IMG/VR virus record: IMGVR_UViG_3300027806_000149
Span: 1-24,526 of that record
Length of the DNA stretch: 24,526 nucleotides
From: a virus
Reading direction: 5' to 3' (one strand)
Below the pieces are notes generated by a model. The model worked only from the letters and a program-made list of their open reading frames with translations. It was not told where the DNA came from and searched no databases. Below, piece after piece: positions 2,881 to 21,018 of the stretch; within the stretch, counting starts at the first letter, position 1, and each line of letters starts with the position of its first letter. The translations under genes and the position numbers were made by a program.

Positions 2881-4317
2881 ATGGCAGACAATCCTCTTCG
2901 GTCATACAGTTTCAATGAGCTGCGCGAGCTGGACAACCTGCGCAAGGCAGGTCAGCTTACGGACCAAGCCATTCGGGATCTTGGGCTGGATCCTTCTTCG
3001 TTCAATGCCAACATTCGCGTGGCCTTGGAAGAGAAGAGGTCTGGTCCGGGAGGTCGGGATGAACCTCCCAGCATTCGTGTTCCGGCGAGTAGAATTTCCG
3101 AACCTGAAAATATCGCTCCCCGTGATTTGGGTCAGGCCATTGCGCGGTCCATCCTGCCCACGCCGGAACTTCCTCCGGCGCAGGGATTTGGTGAGGAGCG
3201 CAGGCGACCCCTGTCCGGGCCCAGCGTCGATTTCCTGAGGAGTACCGAAGAGGGTCCGCCCCAAGTTGGCCAACCCGCATATCCCCAGGTGACTCCCCCC
3301 GCCGCCGCCCCCGACCGGGTAGATCCCCTCGGCGCGGTGCGTAACTACTTGGGCAACCCCATGCCGGGCGGAGGCATGCCGGGGCCCACGAAGTTCACCA
3401 TGCCTACGCGCCCCGCAGACATCAACGAAGAGGATGCCCGACGCAAGCTCCTCGCGGGGCTGCCCGCCGAGCGTGAAGCCCAGGAGACGTACAAGGCCGA
3501 CCCCTACATGACGATGCTGCAGACTGGCCTGCGCATCCTTTCGGCCAAGCCCGAGCTGGGACAGAACGCCATCTCCACCATTGCCGGTCCTGTCGCGGAG
3601 GGCACCGAGAAGTACATGGCGGAGAAGGAGAAGGAGCGCACCAGCAAGCGTGAAGAGGCGAAGGAGGCCCGCGAGGAATCCTACCGTCGCTTCGGCGCGC
3701 AGCGTGAAGTCTCCTCCAAGCTCCTCGACCTTGGGGAAGCCGCCAAGAACCGCGACATCCAGTTCCAGAACCTCAGGAACCAGGTGGAGCGGGGGATCAG
3801 CGAGGACGCCTACAAGAGGGCCGAGCTTGGTATTCGTGGCTCCGAAGCTGCCATGCGCCGGGCCGAGCTGGAGATCAAGCTGCTTGCGGAGCAGGGCAAG
3901 ATCCCGCAGCGTGAAGCCTTCGAGATCACGCAGCGCCTCGAGAACCAGGCCCTGGCCATCGAGCGCATCCCTGAAGAGCAGCGCACCCAAGAACAGAATG
4001 CCCAATTGGAGAGCCTGCGTCGCCAGCAGGCCGCAGTCATGCGCGCCACCGGAGCTTACGTCACCGGGGAGTTCCGCCAGAGGGCTGCTGCCGGACCAGC
4101 GGATGCTGCGCAGGCTAGGGCGTTGCAGGTACAGGCGGAAACCATCCGCAGGAGGATGCTCGATATCCAGAACTCCTACAAGAATGCCGCTGATCCAGAG
4201 GGCTTCCGGCGCGACCCCGAATACCTCCGGTACTTGGCGGAACTGGAGCGCCTGAACCTGGGTGGCGAGACTCAGCCCCCCAACATGAACCTGGCTCCCC
4301 CAAGGCCTTCGCGGTAA
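2881..4317 (+). CDS. Putative internal virion protein with long helical / coiled-coil region
   Basis: 478 aa from the ATG at 2881, one base after the previous stop; an upstream in-frame ATG at 2848 lies inside the preceding gene and is less likely. Residues 1-150 are Pro-rich and low in complexity. From about residue 180 the protein is strongly helical; residues 243-272 are a highly charged Lys/Glu/Arg run suitable for a coiled coil, and Gln/Glu/Arg-rich helices continue to about 440. No catalytic motif was found. Size, composition and position next to two huge proteins fit a podovirus internal core or ejection protein. The first 250 bases are visibly less GC-rich than the rest. It ends in tandem stops, TAA then TAG (4315-4320). 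Confidence 0.75.
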   Translation: MADNPLRSYSFNELRELDNLRKAGQLTDQAIRDLGLDPSSFNANIRVALEEKRSGPGGRDEPPSIRVPASRISEPENIAPRDLGQAIARSILPTPELPPAQGFGEERRRPLSGPSVDFLRSTEEGPPQVGQPAYPQVTPPAAAPDRVDPLGAVRNYLGNPMPGGGMPGPTKFTMPTRPADINEEDARRKLLAGLPAEREAQETYKADPYMTMLQTGLRILSAKPELGQNAISTIAGPVAEGTEKYMAEKEKERTSKREEAKEAREESYRRFGAQREVSSKLLDLGEAAKNRDIQFQNLRNQVERGISEDAYKRAELGIRGSEAAMRRAELEIKLLAEQGKIPQREAFEITQRLENQALAIERIPEEQRTQEQNAQLESLRRQQAAVMRATGAYVTGEFRQRAAAGPADAAQARALQVQAETIRRRMLDIQNSYKNAADPEGFRRDPEYLRYLAELERLNLGGETQPPNMNLAPPRPSR

Positions 4318-17367: not shown

Positions 17368-17786
17368 TGGATCTCTCCATACTCGAAGGGCTTGAGGGTG
17401 AGGATGTCCCACGGTTCTAGCGAGAAAGGTTCGCCGCCGTCAAGGTTCTTGTAGATCTGGCAGAAGGACAGGGGGCGTCCAGCGAAGATGCGCTGCAGGG
17501 CCTCCCCGTATACTTCGCGGAGCTTCTTCTCCACGGGGCGCTTGCGCGTCAGCTTGACCTCCACCACCACCACGGGCCCCTTCAGGGGGATGACGATGAT
17601 GTCGGGCTGGCACACGGCCTTGTCCCAGTAGATCCACTGCCCATGGATGATGAAGGTGGAGAGGTCCCCTTCCTCCACGAGGTGGCGCACCACCTTCTTC
17701 TCGTAGAGGAGGCCTTTGCGCTGGATGCGCGTGGGCTTGCCGTCGCGGAGGAAGGTGGGCCTAGGCCCCAGCGTTGGCGAGGACAT
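17358..17786 (-). CDS. PD-(D/E)XK family nuclease, 142 aa
   Basis: The core motif set is visible: Glu29 on the first helix (GLLYEKKVVRHLVEEG), the P-D pair with Asp62 in QPDIIVIPLKG, and E76-V-K78 in PVVVVEVKLTRK, followed by the helix YGEALQRIFAG. This is the E..PD..ExK arrangement of restriction-endonuclease-like nucleases. The size fits a Holliday-junction-resolvase or VRR-NUC-like enzyme rather than the large RecB exonucleases. ATG 17786 was chosen; it overlaps the TSCPD gene by 26 bases and has GGGAG upstream. As part of the replication block it probably acts on DNA junctions, ends or host DNA; the choice among these is open. Confidence 0.75.
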   Translation of the reverse strand: MSSPTLGPRPTFLRDGKPTRIQRKGLLYEKKVVRHLVEEGDLSTFIIHGQWIYWDKAVCQPDIIVIPLKGPVVVVEVKLTRKRPVEKKLREVYGEALQRIFAGRPLSFCQIYKNLDGGEPFSLEPWDILTLKPFEYGEIQWR

Positions 17787-18087
17787 CGAGGACGGCTCCC
17801 ACGATCTCGACGGGGTTCCCCTCCTTGTCACGGAGGGCAGCCTCGCGCATCACTTCGAGGGGCACCCCATGCTGCAGGGCGAGGGACACCAGGGTGGCGG
17901 CGGTGCAGCATATGGCGTAGAGGTCGGTGCCTGCCCGGGGACCCGAGATGAAGATCTCCCACACCTTTCCCCCGAGGGTGGAGTAGGAGATGTGGTAGCG
18001 TTCCCCATTGAAGTAGAGGTCCTCGATGGTGGACTCACGCCTGTTGGGGAGGCGGAAACGTGTGGAGGAGATTGCTGCGGACGACAT
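17761..18087 (-). CDS. Stand-alone TSCPD-domain protein (NrdJ-related)
   Basis: 108 aa from ATG 18087, with GAAGG eight bases upstream; the longer upstream frame to 18264 is antisense-like and lies in other genes. The sequence contains TRFRLPNRRESTIEDLYFNG, YHISYSTLGGKVWEIFISG, then DLYAICCTAATLVSLALQHG and PLEVMREAALRDKEGNPVEI. This is the pattern of the TSCPD domain at the C-terminus of class II (B12-dependent) ribonucleotide reductases and of free-standing relatives ('R.rLPnRR....~~~~.g..y......g.i.Eif.s........a.....sla~qhG...e.i...l'). Stand-alone copies are known in alphaproteobacteria. No reductase catalytic domain is in the window. It may modulate nucleotide metabolism or a reductase encoded elsewhere. 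Confidence 0.72.
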   Translation of the reverse strand: MSSAAISSTRFRLPNRRESTIEDLYFNGERYHISYSTLGGKVWEIFISGPRAGTDLYAICCTAATLVSLALQHGVPLEVMREAALRDKEGNPVEIVGAVLDVLANAGA

Positions 18088-18211
18088 ACAGGGTACCTTC
18101 CTTCTCGACCCAGACCTGGGGCTCCAGCCCCTTCTTGCGCCAGTAGGCGCGGACGGTAGCGGCCAGGCGCTCACTATGGAACTTGCTTGCCAGGTAGTCA
18201 GGCGAGTCCAT
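18035..18211 (-). CDS. Small protein, 58 aa, between polymerase and TSCPD genes
   Basis: ATG at 18211 overlaps the polymerase stop by 14 bases; the stop at 18035-18037 lies inside the start of the TSCPD gene. The peptide contains SERLAATVRAYWRKKGLEPQ followed by VWVEKEGTLYVVRSNLLHTF. A helix ending 'i..YW.+.G' and then two strands ending 'y.vRS+l..g.P' is a frequent small family in alphaproteobacterial phages and prophages, by recollection. Function unknown; the two-strand/helix build suggests a small regulator. Confidence 0.65.
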   Translation of the reverse strand: MDSPDYLASKFHSERLAATVRAYWRKKGLEPQVWVEKEGTLYVVRSNLLHTFPPPQQA

Positions 18212-19586
18212 CCGGGTTGTCCTTCTTCTTCTTGCCCCAGTTCATCCCGACCTGGGACTCCCATGGGATCGTCATCTCCCTGATGTTACCCCATATGTCC
18301 TTGACCTGCAACGGGTATGTTAGGGTCTCGATGATGCGGGGGAGCAGCTCATCCTTCATGTGGATGGGGATCTGCCCGAAGGCCGCATCGTGGATGTTGT
18401 TGAGGACTTGCACGTCGGGGAGGTTCTGGTGCAGGGCAAGGAGTCCCCGAGAGGTGAGGTCACCAACCGTACTCTGGGGGACGAAGGCGATGGCCGCCCG
18501 GATGGTGGCGTCATCCCTGGGGTTGTCCCAGAAGTTGCGGACCCGCCCGAAGGGGGTGACCAGTTGGCGGAGGGTCTGCACCTGCTGCGCCACCCACACC
18601 TGCCACTTGTGGAGGTTGGGGAAGGTGCGGAAGTACTTGCGCTGGAAGTCCTCGATGATCTTGATCTCTACCTTGAGGACGCCAGCAATCGTGCGAGCGG
18701 TGCCCCCATAGTTGCTGCCATGAGCCGCTCTCTTTGCGATGTCGCGAAAGGACATCTCGCGATAGTATTTGCGATCCGCCAGCTCTCGCCTAGGTTCAAA
18801 GCCGAAGACCATAGCGGCCACCATGGTATGGACATCCCCAGATTCGACGGCCTTGATGTAAGCATCGTCTCCGGCCAGGTACCCCACGACGCGGGCCTCT
18901 GCGCCCTGCTGATCGCAATTGAAGAAGATGTGGCCCTCGTCCGGTATGAATATGCGGCGGACGTAATCGTCAAGGTTCTGAAAGTTAGATCCCCAACCAA
19001 ATGGATGGCTAGAAGACGACCAACGTCCGGTATCAGTTCCTGCAATGTTGAAGTTGGCATGCCACCGAGAGGCGGGGGAGAGCTTCTTGGTAAGGGCATC
19101 AATGGTCTTCTCCAGGTCACGGATGCGCAGGAGGTGCTGCGCGAAGGGGCGGGCCCTCACGTAGTCGCGGCCCAACCTCTCGAGGGCATCGCGGTCGGTG
19201 CTGACTTTCTTCTCCCCCTTCTTGGAGGAGATGACCTCGGGCAGGTACAGCTTCTTGTAGAGGAGGTCCTGCATCTGGAGGTAGCTGCGGGGATTGATCT
19301 TGGTGTTCCAGAGGGTGGCACACAGGTAGTCGAACCCCTTGAGGACCTTGGCCAGGCGGGCCTCGAGGTGCTGCACCATCTCGTCGCGGCGGCCAGTATC
19401 CACGAGGATGCCCCGCTCCATCATGGTAAGGGCGAGGGGCACGAGGCTGCGCTCGAACTCGTAGGTGGGGGTGTGGGGGATGGCAGCATCCACCTCAAGG
19501 GTGAGCATCCCATCGAGCCCATTGTAGATCATCTGCTGGAGGGCAGGATCCATGGAGGGGAGGTTATCGGTCGCGATTGTCCGCAA
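18198..19586 (-). CDS. Family A DNA polymerase, polymerase domain (lacks most of the exonuclease domain)
   Basis: 462 aa. The TTG at 19586 has GGAG at 19595-19598, eight bases upstream, and was preferred; ATG 19553 is the alternative. Motifs: TDTGRWSSSSHPF near 184-196; motif A FFNCDQQGAEARVVGYLAGD with Asp225; motif B RDIAKRAAHGSNYGG with Arg281, Lys285 and Tyr293; motif C LNNIHDAAFGQIP with His399-Asp400. Odd points: the position matching E. coli Pol I Phe762 is His289, and motif C reads H-D-A, not the usual H-D-E. Near the N-terminus MIYNGLDGMLTLEV looks like the ExoIII motif (Y-x3-D), whose partners ExoI and ExoII are in the protein at 20041-21018. The protein thus starts near the end of a proofreading domain. 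It should be the phage replicase, probably paired with that protein. Confidence 0.9.
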   Translation of the reverse strand: MRTIATDNLPSMDPALQQMIYNGLDGMLTLEVDAAIPHTPTYEFERSLVPLALTMMERGILVDTGRRDEMVQHLEARLAKVLKGFDYLCATLWNTKINPRSYLQMQDLLYKKLYLPEVISSKKGEKKVSTDRDALERLGRDYVRARPFAQHLLRIRDLEKTIDALTKKLSPASRWHANFNIAGTDTGRWSSSSHPFGWGSNFQNLDDYVRRIFIPDEGHIFFNCDQQGAEARVVGYLAGDDAYIKAVESGDVHTMVAAMVFGFEPRRELADRKYYREMSFRDIAKRAAHGSNYGGTARTIAGVLKVEIKIIEDFQRKYFRTFPNLHKWQVWVAQQVQTLRQLVTPFGRVRNFWDNPRDDATIRAAIAFVPQSTVGDLTSRGLLALHQNLPDVQVLNNIHDAAFGQIPIHMKDELLPRIIETLTYPLQVKDIWGNIREMTIPWESQVGMNWGKKKKDNPDGLA

Positions 19587-19749
19587 GGTGGTGGCTCCAT
19601 TCGATGGCGTCCGCCAGTTGCCCGAGGAGGGCGAGGGCGTGGCGGCGGGTCAGCGGGATCTTGGTGAGTACACCACCCAGCATGACGTTGGCAATGATTC
19701 CTTCGGGCGTGTTGGTGATGAAGAGGAGGGCGGGGGGTTCATACTTCAC
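19564..19749 (-). CDS. Small hypothetical protein, 61 aa
   Basis: GTG start at 19749 reads VKYEPPALLFITNTPEGIIA; a longer open frame to 19773 lies in the preceding gene. It contains GGVLTKIPLTRRHALALLGQ followed by LADAIEWSHHLADNRDR. A strand-rich first half and one helix follow the pattern of small phage proteins with '...~pL....a..Ll.qLa..i'. It overlaps the polymerase start by 23 bases and the upstream gene by 11. It is one of two small genes that stand between the two parts of the polymerase-exonuclease. Function unknown. Confidence 0.62.
   Translation of the reverse strand: MKYEPPALLFITNTPEGIIANVMLGGVLTKIPLTRRHALALLGQLADAIEWSHHLADNRDR
19595..19598 (-). promoter_or_regulatory. Ribosome-binding site supporting a TTG start for the polymerase
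   Basis: On the - strand GGAG is followed by eight bases and then TTG at 19586. No comparable site precedes the in-frame ATG at 19553, which is preceded by a C/T-rich run. This supports the TTG start and retention of the 11 extra residues before the ExoIII-like motif. Confidence 0.5.
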
Positions 19750-20041
19750 GGCGCAAGGTCCTCCCCTCCGCAATCATCTTCCTTACACCTCGGGCCAGGT
19801 AGTCGGGGTCTATGTCGAGGAGCAGGCACATGTCCTTGAGGGGGGTGGCCGACGACGTGAAGAGGACGCTGCGCGCCTGGTCCCGCACGATGCCTGGCTT
19901 GAGGGAGGTGGCATCCTCCACCGCCTGCATGATGATGGCGAGGAAGAGCCTCTCCTCGGGGCGGAGGGTCTTGCTCTCCTCCGACAGGTCAAAGGCGTAG
20001 CCTGTCGAATCCCATTCCTTCGACAGCAATTCCTGTGGCAT
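19739..20041 (-). CDS. Hypothetical helical protein, 100 aa
   Basis: ATG at 20041 overlaps the stop of the exonuclease gene as TGATG; an adjacent GTG at 20044 is less likely. The protein has RPEERLFLAIIMQAVEDATS, then RDQARSVLFTSSATPLKDMC, and LLLDIDPDYLARGVRKMIAE. The pattern 'l..eE.l..aiilQA..Da......r..A..~l.......~vC.l.glDP.~vr' recurs in a helical protein family of alphaproteobacteria and their phages, by recollection, with unknown role. Together with the 61-aa gene it separates the exonuclease gene from the polymerase gene. Confidence 0.68.
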   Translation of the reverse strand: MPQELLSKEWDSTGYAFDLSEESKTLRPEERLFLAIIMQAVEDATSLKPGIVRDQARSVLFTSSATPLKDMCLLLDIDPDYLARGVRKMIAEGRTLRREV

Positions 20042-21018
20042 CACTCATCTTTCTTGTTCCGGTCCTTCACCTTGCCAACGCGCATGTTCTTCCATGACTT
20101 CTCGTTGCAGTAGATGCTACCCAGAAAGCCCAAGGATTTCAACCACTCGATCTCGTTGGAGTGGGACTTGAGCATGGTGTCATCGACGGGGAAGCACACC
20201 TTCAACCCCATCGCCCTGAGGTAGGTGAGGTCGTAGACGGAGTTGTGCGCCACCTTGCGCAGCGGGGAAGCCATCAGCTTCTGGACGCGCAGCCACATCT
20301 GCACCTCGGTCTCCTCGTCCCAGAAGTTGTGGGAGTGGAACCAGAAGGGCAGGACGAATGTATTGGTGGGGCTGTTGGCAAAGCAGATCATGGTGACCTG
20401 GCCCCGGGCCGTCTCGATGTCGAAGGCGAACTGCTCCCCCTTGAGGATGGCGGAGACCGCGAAGTCCATGTCCCGCAGGGACTCGATGATGTGGATGCGG
20501 CGGGAAGGGAATACGCTGCGCTCCTTGAGGGATTCCTGCCACGCCTTCTTCAGGTCCATGGAGAGGATGGGCAGGAGGGACTGGTCCTTCACCAGGGCGC
20601 GCGGGTTGTGGGTGGGGATTACCCTCACTCCCTCGGGAGTGTAGAGGGTGGTACCCCGGTGATCTTGCAGCTTCTCACCTGTGAGGGCCCAAAGGGCAAG
20701 GTCACCCAGAGCAAGTACGAGTCGGGCAGACCTGCAGCGTTCACGTACTCGATGGTAATGAGGGAGGAGGTCCCCCCGGAGGTATCCGTACTTAGGGTGT
20801 AGGGGGTTTCCCACTGCGTCATTGGGACAGTCCTTTCGTGGATGGAAGAAGGAGGAGGGGTTGCCGAAGCGCGGGGTCTCGGGGAGGAACGTGTCCATCT
20901 CGAGGGGGCCGCACCCGGCGTAGCGCGTTGCTATCCCCAGGAGGGCGGCGGGGTAGCCGCTGACATGCCGCCCCTCCTTGACATCCTGCACCGAGGGGTA
21001 ATCGAAGAGGGCAAGCAT
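20041..21018 (-). CDS. UDG-like domain fused to the N-terminal part of a 3'-5' exonuclease
   Basis: 325 aa from ATG 21018, one base after the preceding stop. Residues 1-160 look like the uracil-DNA glycosylase fold: SARLVLALGDLALWALTGEK at 97-116, DHRGTTLY at 119-126, VIPTHNPRAL at 133-142, and a Pol-like spacing to DLKKAW. The first UDG motif (GxxPG) is absent and the third reads HNP. Residues 176-325 are a DnaQ-like exonuclease start: ExoI FAFDIETARGQVTMICFAN (Asp200, Glu202) and ExoII KVAHNSVYDLTYLRAMG (Asp263), then DDTMLKSHSNEIEWLKSLGF. The typical ExoIII Tyr-x3-Asp is missing before the stop but appears at the start of the family A polymerase gene. It probably works as the proofreading and accessory half of the replicase. 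Confidence 0.78.
   Translation of the reverse strand: MLALFDYPSVQDVKEGRHVSGYPAALLGIATRYAGCGPLEMDTFLPETPRFGNPSSFFHPRKDCPNDAVGNPLHPKYGYLRGDLLPHYHRVRERCRSARLVLALGDLALWALTGEKLQDHRGTTLYTPEGVRVIPTHNPRALVKDQSLLPILSMDLKKAWQESLKERSVFPSRRIHIIESLRDMDFAVSAILKGEQFAFDIETARGQVTMICFANSPTNTFVLPFWFHSHNFWDEETEVQMWLRVQKLMASPLRKVAHNSVYDLTYLRAMGLKVCFPVDDTMLKSHSNEIEWLKSLGFLGSIYCNEKSWKNMRVGKVKDRNKKDE

Follow-up and report, generated by a model that had tools for sequence, protein, structure and literature searches.

In DNA polymerases of the Pol I type, all three exonuclease motifs lie within one chain, and a viral locus in which these motifs are found on two separate proteins raises the question of what kind of enzyme its genes encode. 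The locus is in the IMG/VR virus record IMGVR_UViG_3300027806_000149, positions 1 to 24,526, and this whole stretch of 24,526 nucleotides (nt) is called the window below. On its minus strand, four genes with overlapping ends are found in the order exo (325 amino acids, aa), p101, p69 and pol (462 aa), and their coordinates and motifs are listed in Table 1. The proofreading domain of this family A polymerase is divided between exo and pol, and the division is ancient and has been kept under selection. We consider it highly probable that an ancient gene fission has led to an obligate two-subunit replicase, the proofreading site of which is completed in trans. The division was pointed out in an initial annotation of the window, which placed ExoI (D200-I-E202) and ExoII (HNSVYD263) on one open reading frame (ORF) and YNGLD (residues 21-25) on another, with two small genes between them; all of these are present at the places given there on the minus strand, the sizes of the small genes depending on start choice, and the same divided arrangement recurs in relatives.

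Table 1. Split polymerase locus of the window: genes, domains and motifs. Rows are those of the 48-row alignment described in the text.
Feature	Position in window	Strand	Evidence or remark
exo subunit, 325 aa: UDG-like domain and 3'-5' exonuclease core (ExoI, ExoII; without ExoIII)	20041..21018	-	
Family-4 uracil-DNA-glycosylase-like (SPO1-polymerase-like) N-terminal domain, exo residues 1-166	20521..21018	-	Structure match Z 15.8 to UdgX; profile match 1vk2 5e-17
ExoI, D200-I-E202	20413..20421	-	D and E invariant, 48/48 rows
ExoII, N259 to D263 (within H258-N-S-V-Y-D263)	20230..20244	-	N259 and D263 invariant, 48/48 rows
Conserved C-terminal tail of exo, W309-E325 (WKNMRVGKVKDRNKKDE), ends at split point	20044..20094	-	Synonymous codon changes, three stop codons (15 rows)
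p101, 101 aa (GTG start) or 100 aa (ATG start); first gap gene	19739..20044	-	Overlaps exo stop codon (TGATG)
p69, 69 aa (TTG start) or 61 aa (inner GTG start); second gap gene	19564..19773	-	
pol subunit, 462 aa, family A, opens with ExoIII helix	18198..19586	-	DNA_pol_A (PF00476) 1.7e-38, 133 bits against a Pfam cut-off of 34.3
ExoIII, Y21-N-G-L-D25, on N-terminal helix (residues 14-35) of pol	19512..19526	-	Y and D invariant, 48/48 rows; helix in model
Motif A, catalytic D225	18912..18914	-	44/44 rows that reach it
Motif B, R281-K285-H289-Y293	18708..18746	-	Intein insertion point in some relatives
Motif C, H399-D400	18387..18392	-	H 37/37, D 36/37 rows that reach it

The exonuclease residues of Klenow are D355, E357, D424, Y497 and D501 (PMC9629493), and the break, when mapped on Klenow, is between D424 and Y497. 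As for the new ends, exo stops 13-17 residues after an invariant WK, and pol starts 17-24 residues before the ExoIII Tyr, using a TTG start codon in the window and ATG at the same point in several relatives. In profile-profile comparison with three fused relatives, exo occupies columns 10-347 and pol columns 353-805, leaving a gap of five columns, and exo matches phrog_17 (DNA polymerase) at profile positions 568-798, adjoining the pol match at 807-1238 in the same PHROG. A fused version was searched for among relatives and was found (MW202489, Microcystis phage Mel-JY34); the split pair tiles the single-chain polymerases of these related phages, which consist of a uracil-DNA-glycosylase (UDG)-like domain, an exonuclease and a polymerase (UDG-Exo-Pol). 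Judged by these alignments, exo and pol are the UDG-Exo-Pol polymerase in two pieces.

Structure models of the single chains give the same picture of the two parts. AlphaFold2 model residues 172-325 of exo superpose on Klenow residues 325-490 (1d8y, Z 11.6), and residues 4-462 of pol on residues 474-928 (1d8y, Z 34.5). The exo protein is under the Pfam cut-off for exonuclease (0.013), while its profile matches Klenow (5e-8) and family-4 UDGs (4e-17), the GEGPG stretch of 1vk2 aligning to a dyPs stretch in the UDG-like domain of the exo family. In a Foldseek search, the exo model has its best match in 9qhs, a phage family-A polymerase of 1122 residues, with a root-mean-square deviation of 18.1 over the whole length, which is large because the domain placement differs. 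The predicted local distance difference test score is 85.9 for exo, with blocks from about residue 281 onward at 45-54, the tail included, and 88.1 for pol, in which helix 14-35 with Y21 and D25 is among the weaker parts (about 76-78). This loss of confidence in the exo end, and the weaker score of the ExoIII helix, are what is expected of segments that need a partner and were folded alone.

To learn how widely this arrangement occurs, relatives (designated here by locus numbers beginning with L) were gathered by tblastn and hidden Markov model scans, the best 80 of 176 and the best 80 of 456 matches being kept. Exo and pol are on separate frames in 184 of the 224 loci and on one frame in 19 (MW202489 and 18 cellular Pol I), and 21 loci have one half only. 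The 184 split loci include the window itself (L060) and one false case (L214), and many of them overlap on the same contigs; grouping them by shared k-mers and adding L262 and L263 gave 47 representatives besides the window, which reach down to 28% (exo) and 33% (pol) identity to it. L214 was dropped as a split case, being a cellular Pol I whose two frames overlap (gap of -237 nt). The split is also found in a cultured virus, Caulobacter phage Kuura (L001), which forms plaques (PMC9959647). A scan of genome contigs yielded one split case in 20 relatives, the Acidobacteria bin L205, and in the phage collection, where Kuura and 12 others of the 2318 records matched by pol were examined, Kuura alone has this break and the other 12 are fused or broken elsewhere. 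The split polymerase was the only one found in 8/8 records (PolA 8/8, PolB 0/8 and PolIII alpha 0/8).

In a maximum likelihood tree of pol (quick search, 70 rows, 445 columns), from which rows with too incomplete a polymerase were omitted, all 36 split rows form one clade with a Shimodaira-Hasegawa-like approximate likelihood ratio test value of 99.7. The tree has one change of state, and the split clade adjoins the fused Mel-JY34/MW202489 group, although its sister is uncertain because several fused rows are long branches. Because the members are mostly metagenome contigs, the split might be taken for an assembly or sequencing error, or for a pseudogene. We find this hardly credible, since the same break is present in independent contigs, one cultured phage and one bacterial genome bin, with Kuura contradicting it directly, and since the catalytic residues are intact and the ratios of nonsynonymous to synonymous substitution rates (dN/dS) are 0.17-0.39 for exo and 0.14-0.36 for pol (six sequences each).

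The split, its position and its single clade are observed, and so is the retention of catalytic residues on separate chains, which can be followed in an alignment of 48 rows (the window and the 47 representatives; at 90% exo identity they fall into 38 clusters, at 50% into 11). In 48/48 rows, one protein has ExoI D/E and ExoII N/D and the second has ExoIII Y/D, and this count rules out a chance motif match. With regard to the DEDDy pattern, the exo core has the DxE of ExoI and the N..D of ExoII, while ExoIII is not in the same polypeptide, and no Y-x3-D was found after ExoII in the exo ORF; with regard to the UDG-Exo-Pol family, the UDG-like domain is ahead of the exonuclease, while the domains are distributed over two genes rather than joined in one polypeptide. 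Only Y21, D25 and T29 are invariant among residues 1-40 of pol, and 15 of the 156 columns are invariant in residues 170-325 of exo. Since the polymerase alone has no known use for the DEDDy Tyr and Asp, their constancy points to a shared site.

A different explanation of the divided motifs is that the exo subunit acts alone, or that proofreading has been lost, the ExoIII of pol being a relic or structural. A free-standing exonuclease of the same fold does exist (ExnV1, PDB 7r0t), and H286 and E291, which are invariant in alignment A5, are imaginable as a substitute for ExoIII. However, ExnV1 carries its own ExoIII equivalent (PMC9629493), whereas the exo of the split clade is without one; no relative was seen whose 325-aa-type protein has an ExoIII of its own. 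A relic would hardly keep its Tyr and Asp as the sole invariants, with T29, of the first 40 residues down to 28-33% identity, and we therefore regard this explanation as unlikely. The proposal of the initial annotation that two subunits complete the site in trans is the best supported one, given the 48/48 rows and the tiling of fused relatives by the halves.

The genes between the halves were considered as possible partners or causes. The gap is 182-1255 nt long and has at least one ORF, the kind of which varies by lineage. A p101 homologue is in the gap of 40 of the 47 representatives, those without it being L001 (Kuura), L173, L182, L188, L205, L262 and L263; in L262 and L263 the gap is not delimited, and a p101 match was found nowhere in either. 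The hits of the wide p101 model are partly circular, because it was built with 13 divergent gap proteins; a narrow model from near relatives finds eight of the divergent ones at 2e-6 or better, with L185 (0.003) and L176 (0.066) weak. In whole records, p101 was found once per record in 14/14 (loci outside the query alignment) and in 0/25 others (7 split without a gap p101 and 18 without this split). The p101 of the window has no Pfam name and a PHROG match at chance level only, and one of 19 members of its family matches an unnamed PHROG, while p69 is confined to near relatives. Other gap genes are ThyX and a dATP/dGTP diphosphohydrolase domain (L114), DUF3310 (L121), pyrophosphatase (L188) and endonucleases (L105, L173); the L114 pair, at 3047-4001 between the halves, suggests nucleotide-pool cargo.

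Since the gap genes vary, they are not generally needed, although p101 is tightly linked. The gap content is probably ordinary cargo for the most part, and p101 alone is a candidate partner. The dN/dS values are 0.04-0.83 for p101 (five sequences) and 0.12-0.71 for p69 (six), so that constraint is weaker on p69 and on some p101 pairs. It is unlikely that p69 helps assembly; p101 may do so. We consider improbable a more elaborate role in which p101 would be a dedicated third subunit clamping both halves, and proofreading would be switchable by loading or releasing the exonuclease/UDG subunit. The initial annotation offered, as an alternative to completion in trans, that the gene was split by insertion of the two small ORFs; such a cause is unlikely in the window, because the split is old and clade-wide and the gap genes are lineage-specific, p69 being present in near relatives only.

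A homing endonuclease may have started the ancient split. There is no endonuclease gene at the break in the window, and an endonuclease ORF is in the gap of L105 and L173. A separate break, between UDG and ExoI, is found in L253 and L259. The gap there has a gene for an HNH endonuclease, which matches an endonuclease PHROG at 2.6e-22, and the near relatives L238 and L240 are fused. In this case an inserted endonuclease seems to have divided the gene only recently, which would support an endonuclease origin for the ancient exo/pol break as well.

The gap also bears on the explanation that the halves are joined at the RNA or protein level, by an intron, trans-splicing, a split intein, a frameshift or readthrough, into a one-chain enzyme. 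Introns are known in phage polymerase genes, one has been proposed for the split PolA of phage MEP401 by the authors describing that phage (PMC10580990), and inteins are present in the same polymerase at motif B. On the other hand, no Rfam intron was found at gathering level in the window stretch or in 17 loci, Rfam covering described families only, and the window stretch gave a single chance-level match, to a small nucleolar RNA, outside the gap. The exo stop codon is TGA, TAG or TAA in different rows, with the tail kept as protein while its codons vary synonymously; the gap differs in length and ORFs, some loci having a ThyX, DUF3310, pyrophosphatase or endonuclease gene in it; and no intein end motifs were seen in the sequences of the new ends. 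Joining is thus quite improbable.

For the preferred two-subunit enzyme, the following course of events is the most probable. The ancestor was a single-chain, SPO1-like UDG-Exo-Pol replicase of family A in a phage, and its gene broke once, long ago, in the loop that joins the exonuclease core to the ExoIII helix. Two separate proteins are now made from one compact operon, the N-terminus of pol supplying the ExoIII helix with its Tyr and metal-binding Asp. By docking of pol on the exo subunit with ExoI and ExoII, one DEDDy site would be rebuilt across the interface, and the UDG-like domain would travel with the exonuclease subunit. Physical assembly, exonuclease activity and the dependence of proofreading on the complex are what we infer.

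Several points weigh against this reconstruction. The structure models are of single chains, and the split chains have extra residues at both new ends. Conservation of residues is a sign of constraint and does not demonstrate activity or assembly. Fused members inside the split clade could have been missed, each survey having kept no more than its best 80 matches (of 176 and of 456). The split clade is more secure than its sister group, which depends on a quick tree with long fused branches.

Upstream of exo on the same strand are a DUF669/single-stranded-DNA-binding-like gene, an AAA_24 ATPase and a dCMP deaminase, and because of these neighbours the locus is regarded as a replication module. 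The gene downstream of pol (window 17761-18264) has a TSCPD domain match (3.5e-5), a domain which occurs in some ribonucleotide reductases. Polymerase motifs A, B and C are all present in the window, and exceptions among the rows are F at 293 (L173) and A at 400 (one row). H289 of pol (window 18720-18722) is at the position of E. coli PolA 762 and is His in 41/41 rows that reach it; the residue at this position (Phe, Tyr or Leu) is used to sort PolA in a survey of virioplankton (PMC6302109). Motif B (AHG/SNYGG) is interrupted in frame by inteins of about 294 and 150 aa in L048-L051, L056 (pol residue 291) and L114; they were recognised by terminal motifs, the Pfam search giving no intein match.

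A large phage clade has therefore had its exonuclease motifs on two chains through long evolutionary time, and exo subunits of this split escape annotation, as does that of Kuura, which is annotated as 'hypothetical protein'. If the complex works as we suppose, proofreading could be added or removed by mixing proteins. The coupling of polymerase to exonuclease would then be open to direct test, a natural polymerase subunit lacking the exonuclease core would be available, and the system would be a clean case of a broken essential gene turned into a stable two-subunit enzyme. Split phage polymerases as such are known; what is new here is that the enzyme is of family A, that the break falls within the exonuclease active site and that a whole clade has it. 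In the open-licence PMC literature, we found no family-A polymerase reported as split between ExoII and ExoIII, which is weak evidence because subscription papers and preprints are outside that scope. No case of this break was seen in a survey on how phages swap polymerases (PMC11348598) or in a jumbo-phage survey (PMC7824862), the latter describing a split PolIII alpha.

The closest known systems are the fused UDG-Exo-Pol phage polymerases (MW202489, Microcystis phage Mel-JY34), which have the same three domains in the same order as the split pair, but in one chain with no break before ExoIII; p101 is found in 0/18 records without this split. The phiLo polymerase (9qhs), for which no paper was found in the same open-licence literature, is probably also of this fused kind, and residues 48-348 of its 1122-residue chain match the exo model. 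Among enzymes encoded by two genes, gp43A/gp43B of T4-like Aeromonas phages 25 and 44RR is likewise a replicative phage polymerase, but of family B rather than A, and its products co-purify and are active according to a review covering Petrov's and Friedrich's T4-phage work (PMC2988022). In the same review, Aeh1 NrdA is a ribonucleotide reductase with genes in pieces, functional as separate chains and linked to an HNH endonuclease; both it and split PolA are cases of phage gene fission, but the enzyme is different, and the endonuclease is in place there and in some members only here.

Family-A polymerases are also broken at other points. One break is after ExoIII (L229), a third break point, with a zinc-ribbon-like ORF (2902-3135) between an exonuclease having ExoIII and the polymerase. 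Another, immediately ahead of motif A in the palm, is found in L226, L250, L254, L255, L256, L261 and L265, with different genes between, and in the more distant MEP401. The OM43 phages MEP401 and MEP402 likewise encode their family-A polymerase in two ORFs, which are separated by a small uncharacterised gene (PMC10580990), but their break is in the palm and the exonuclease is whole on the first ORF. ExnV1 (PDB 7r0t), from a viral metagenome, is a PolA exonuclease domain on its own polypeptide and is considered by its authors to come from a truncated gene (PMC9629493); its site is complete with its own ExoIII equivalent, unlike that of the split exo, which would be completed by the N-terminal helix of pol.

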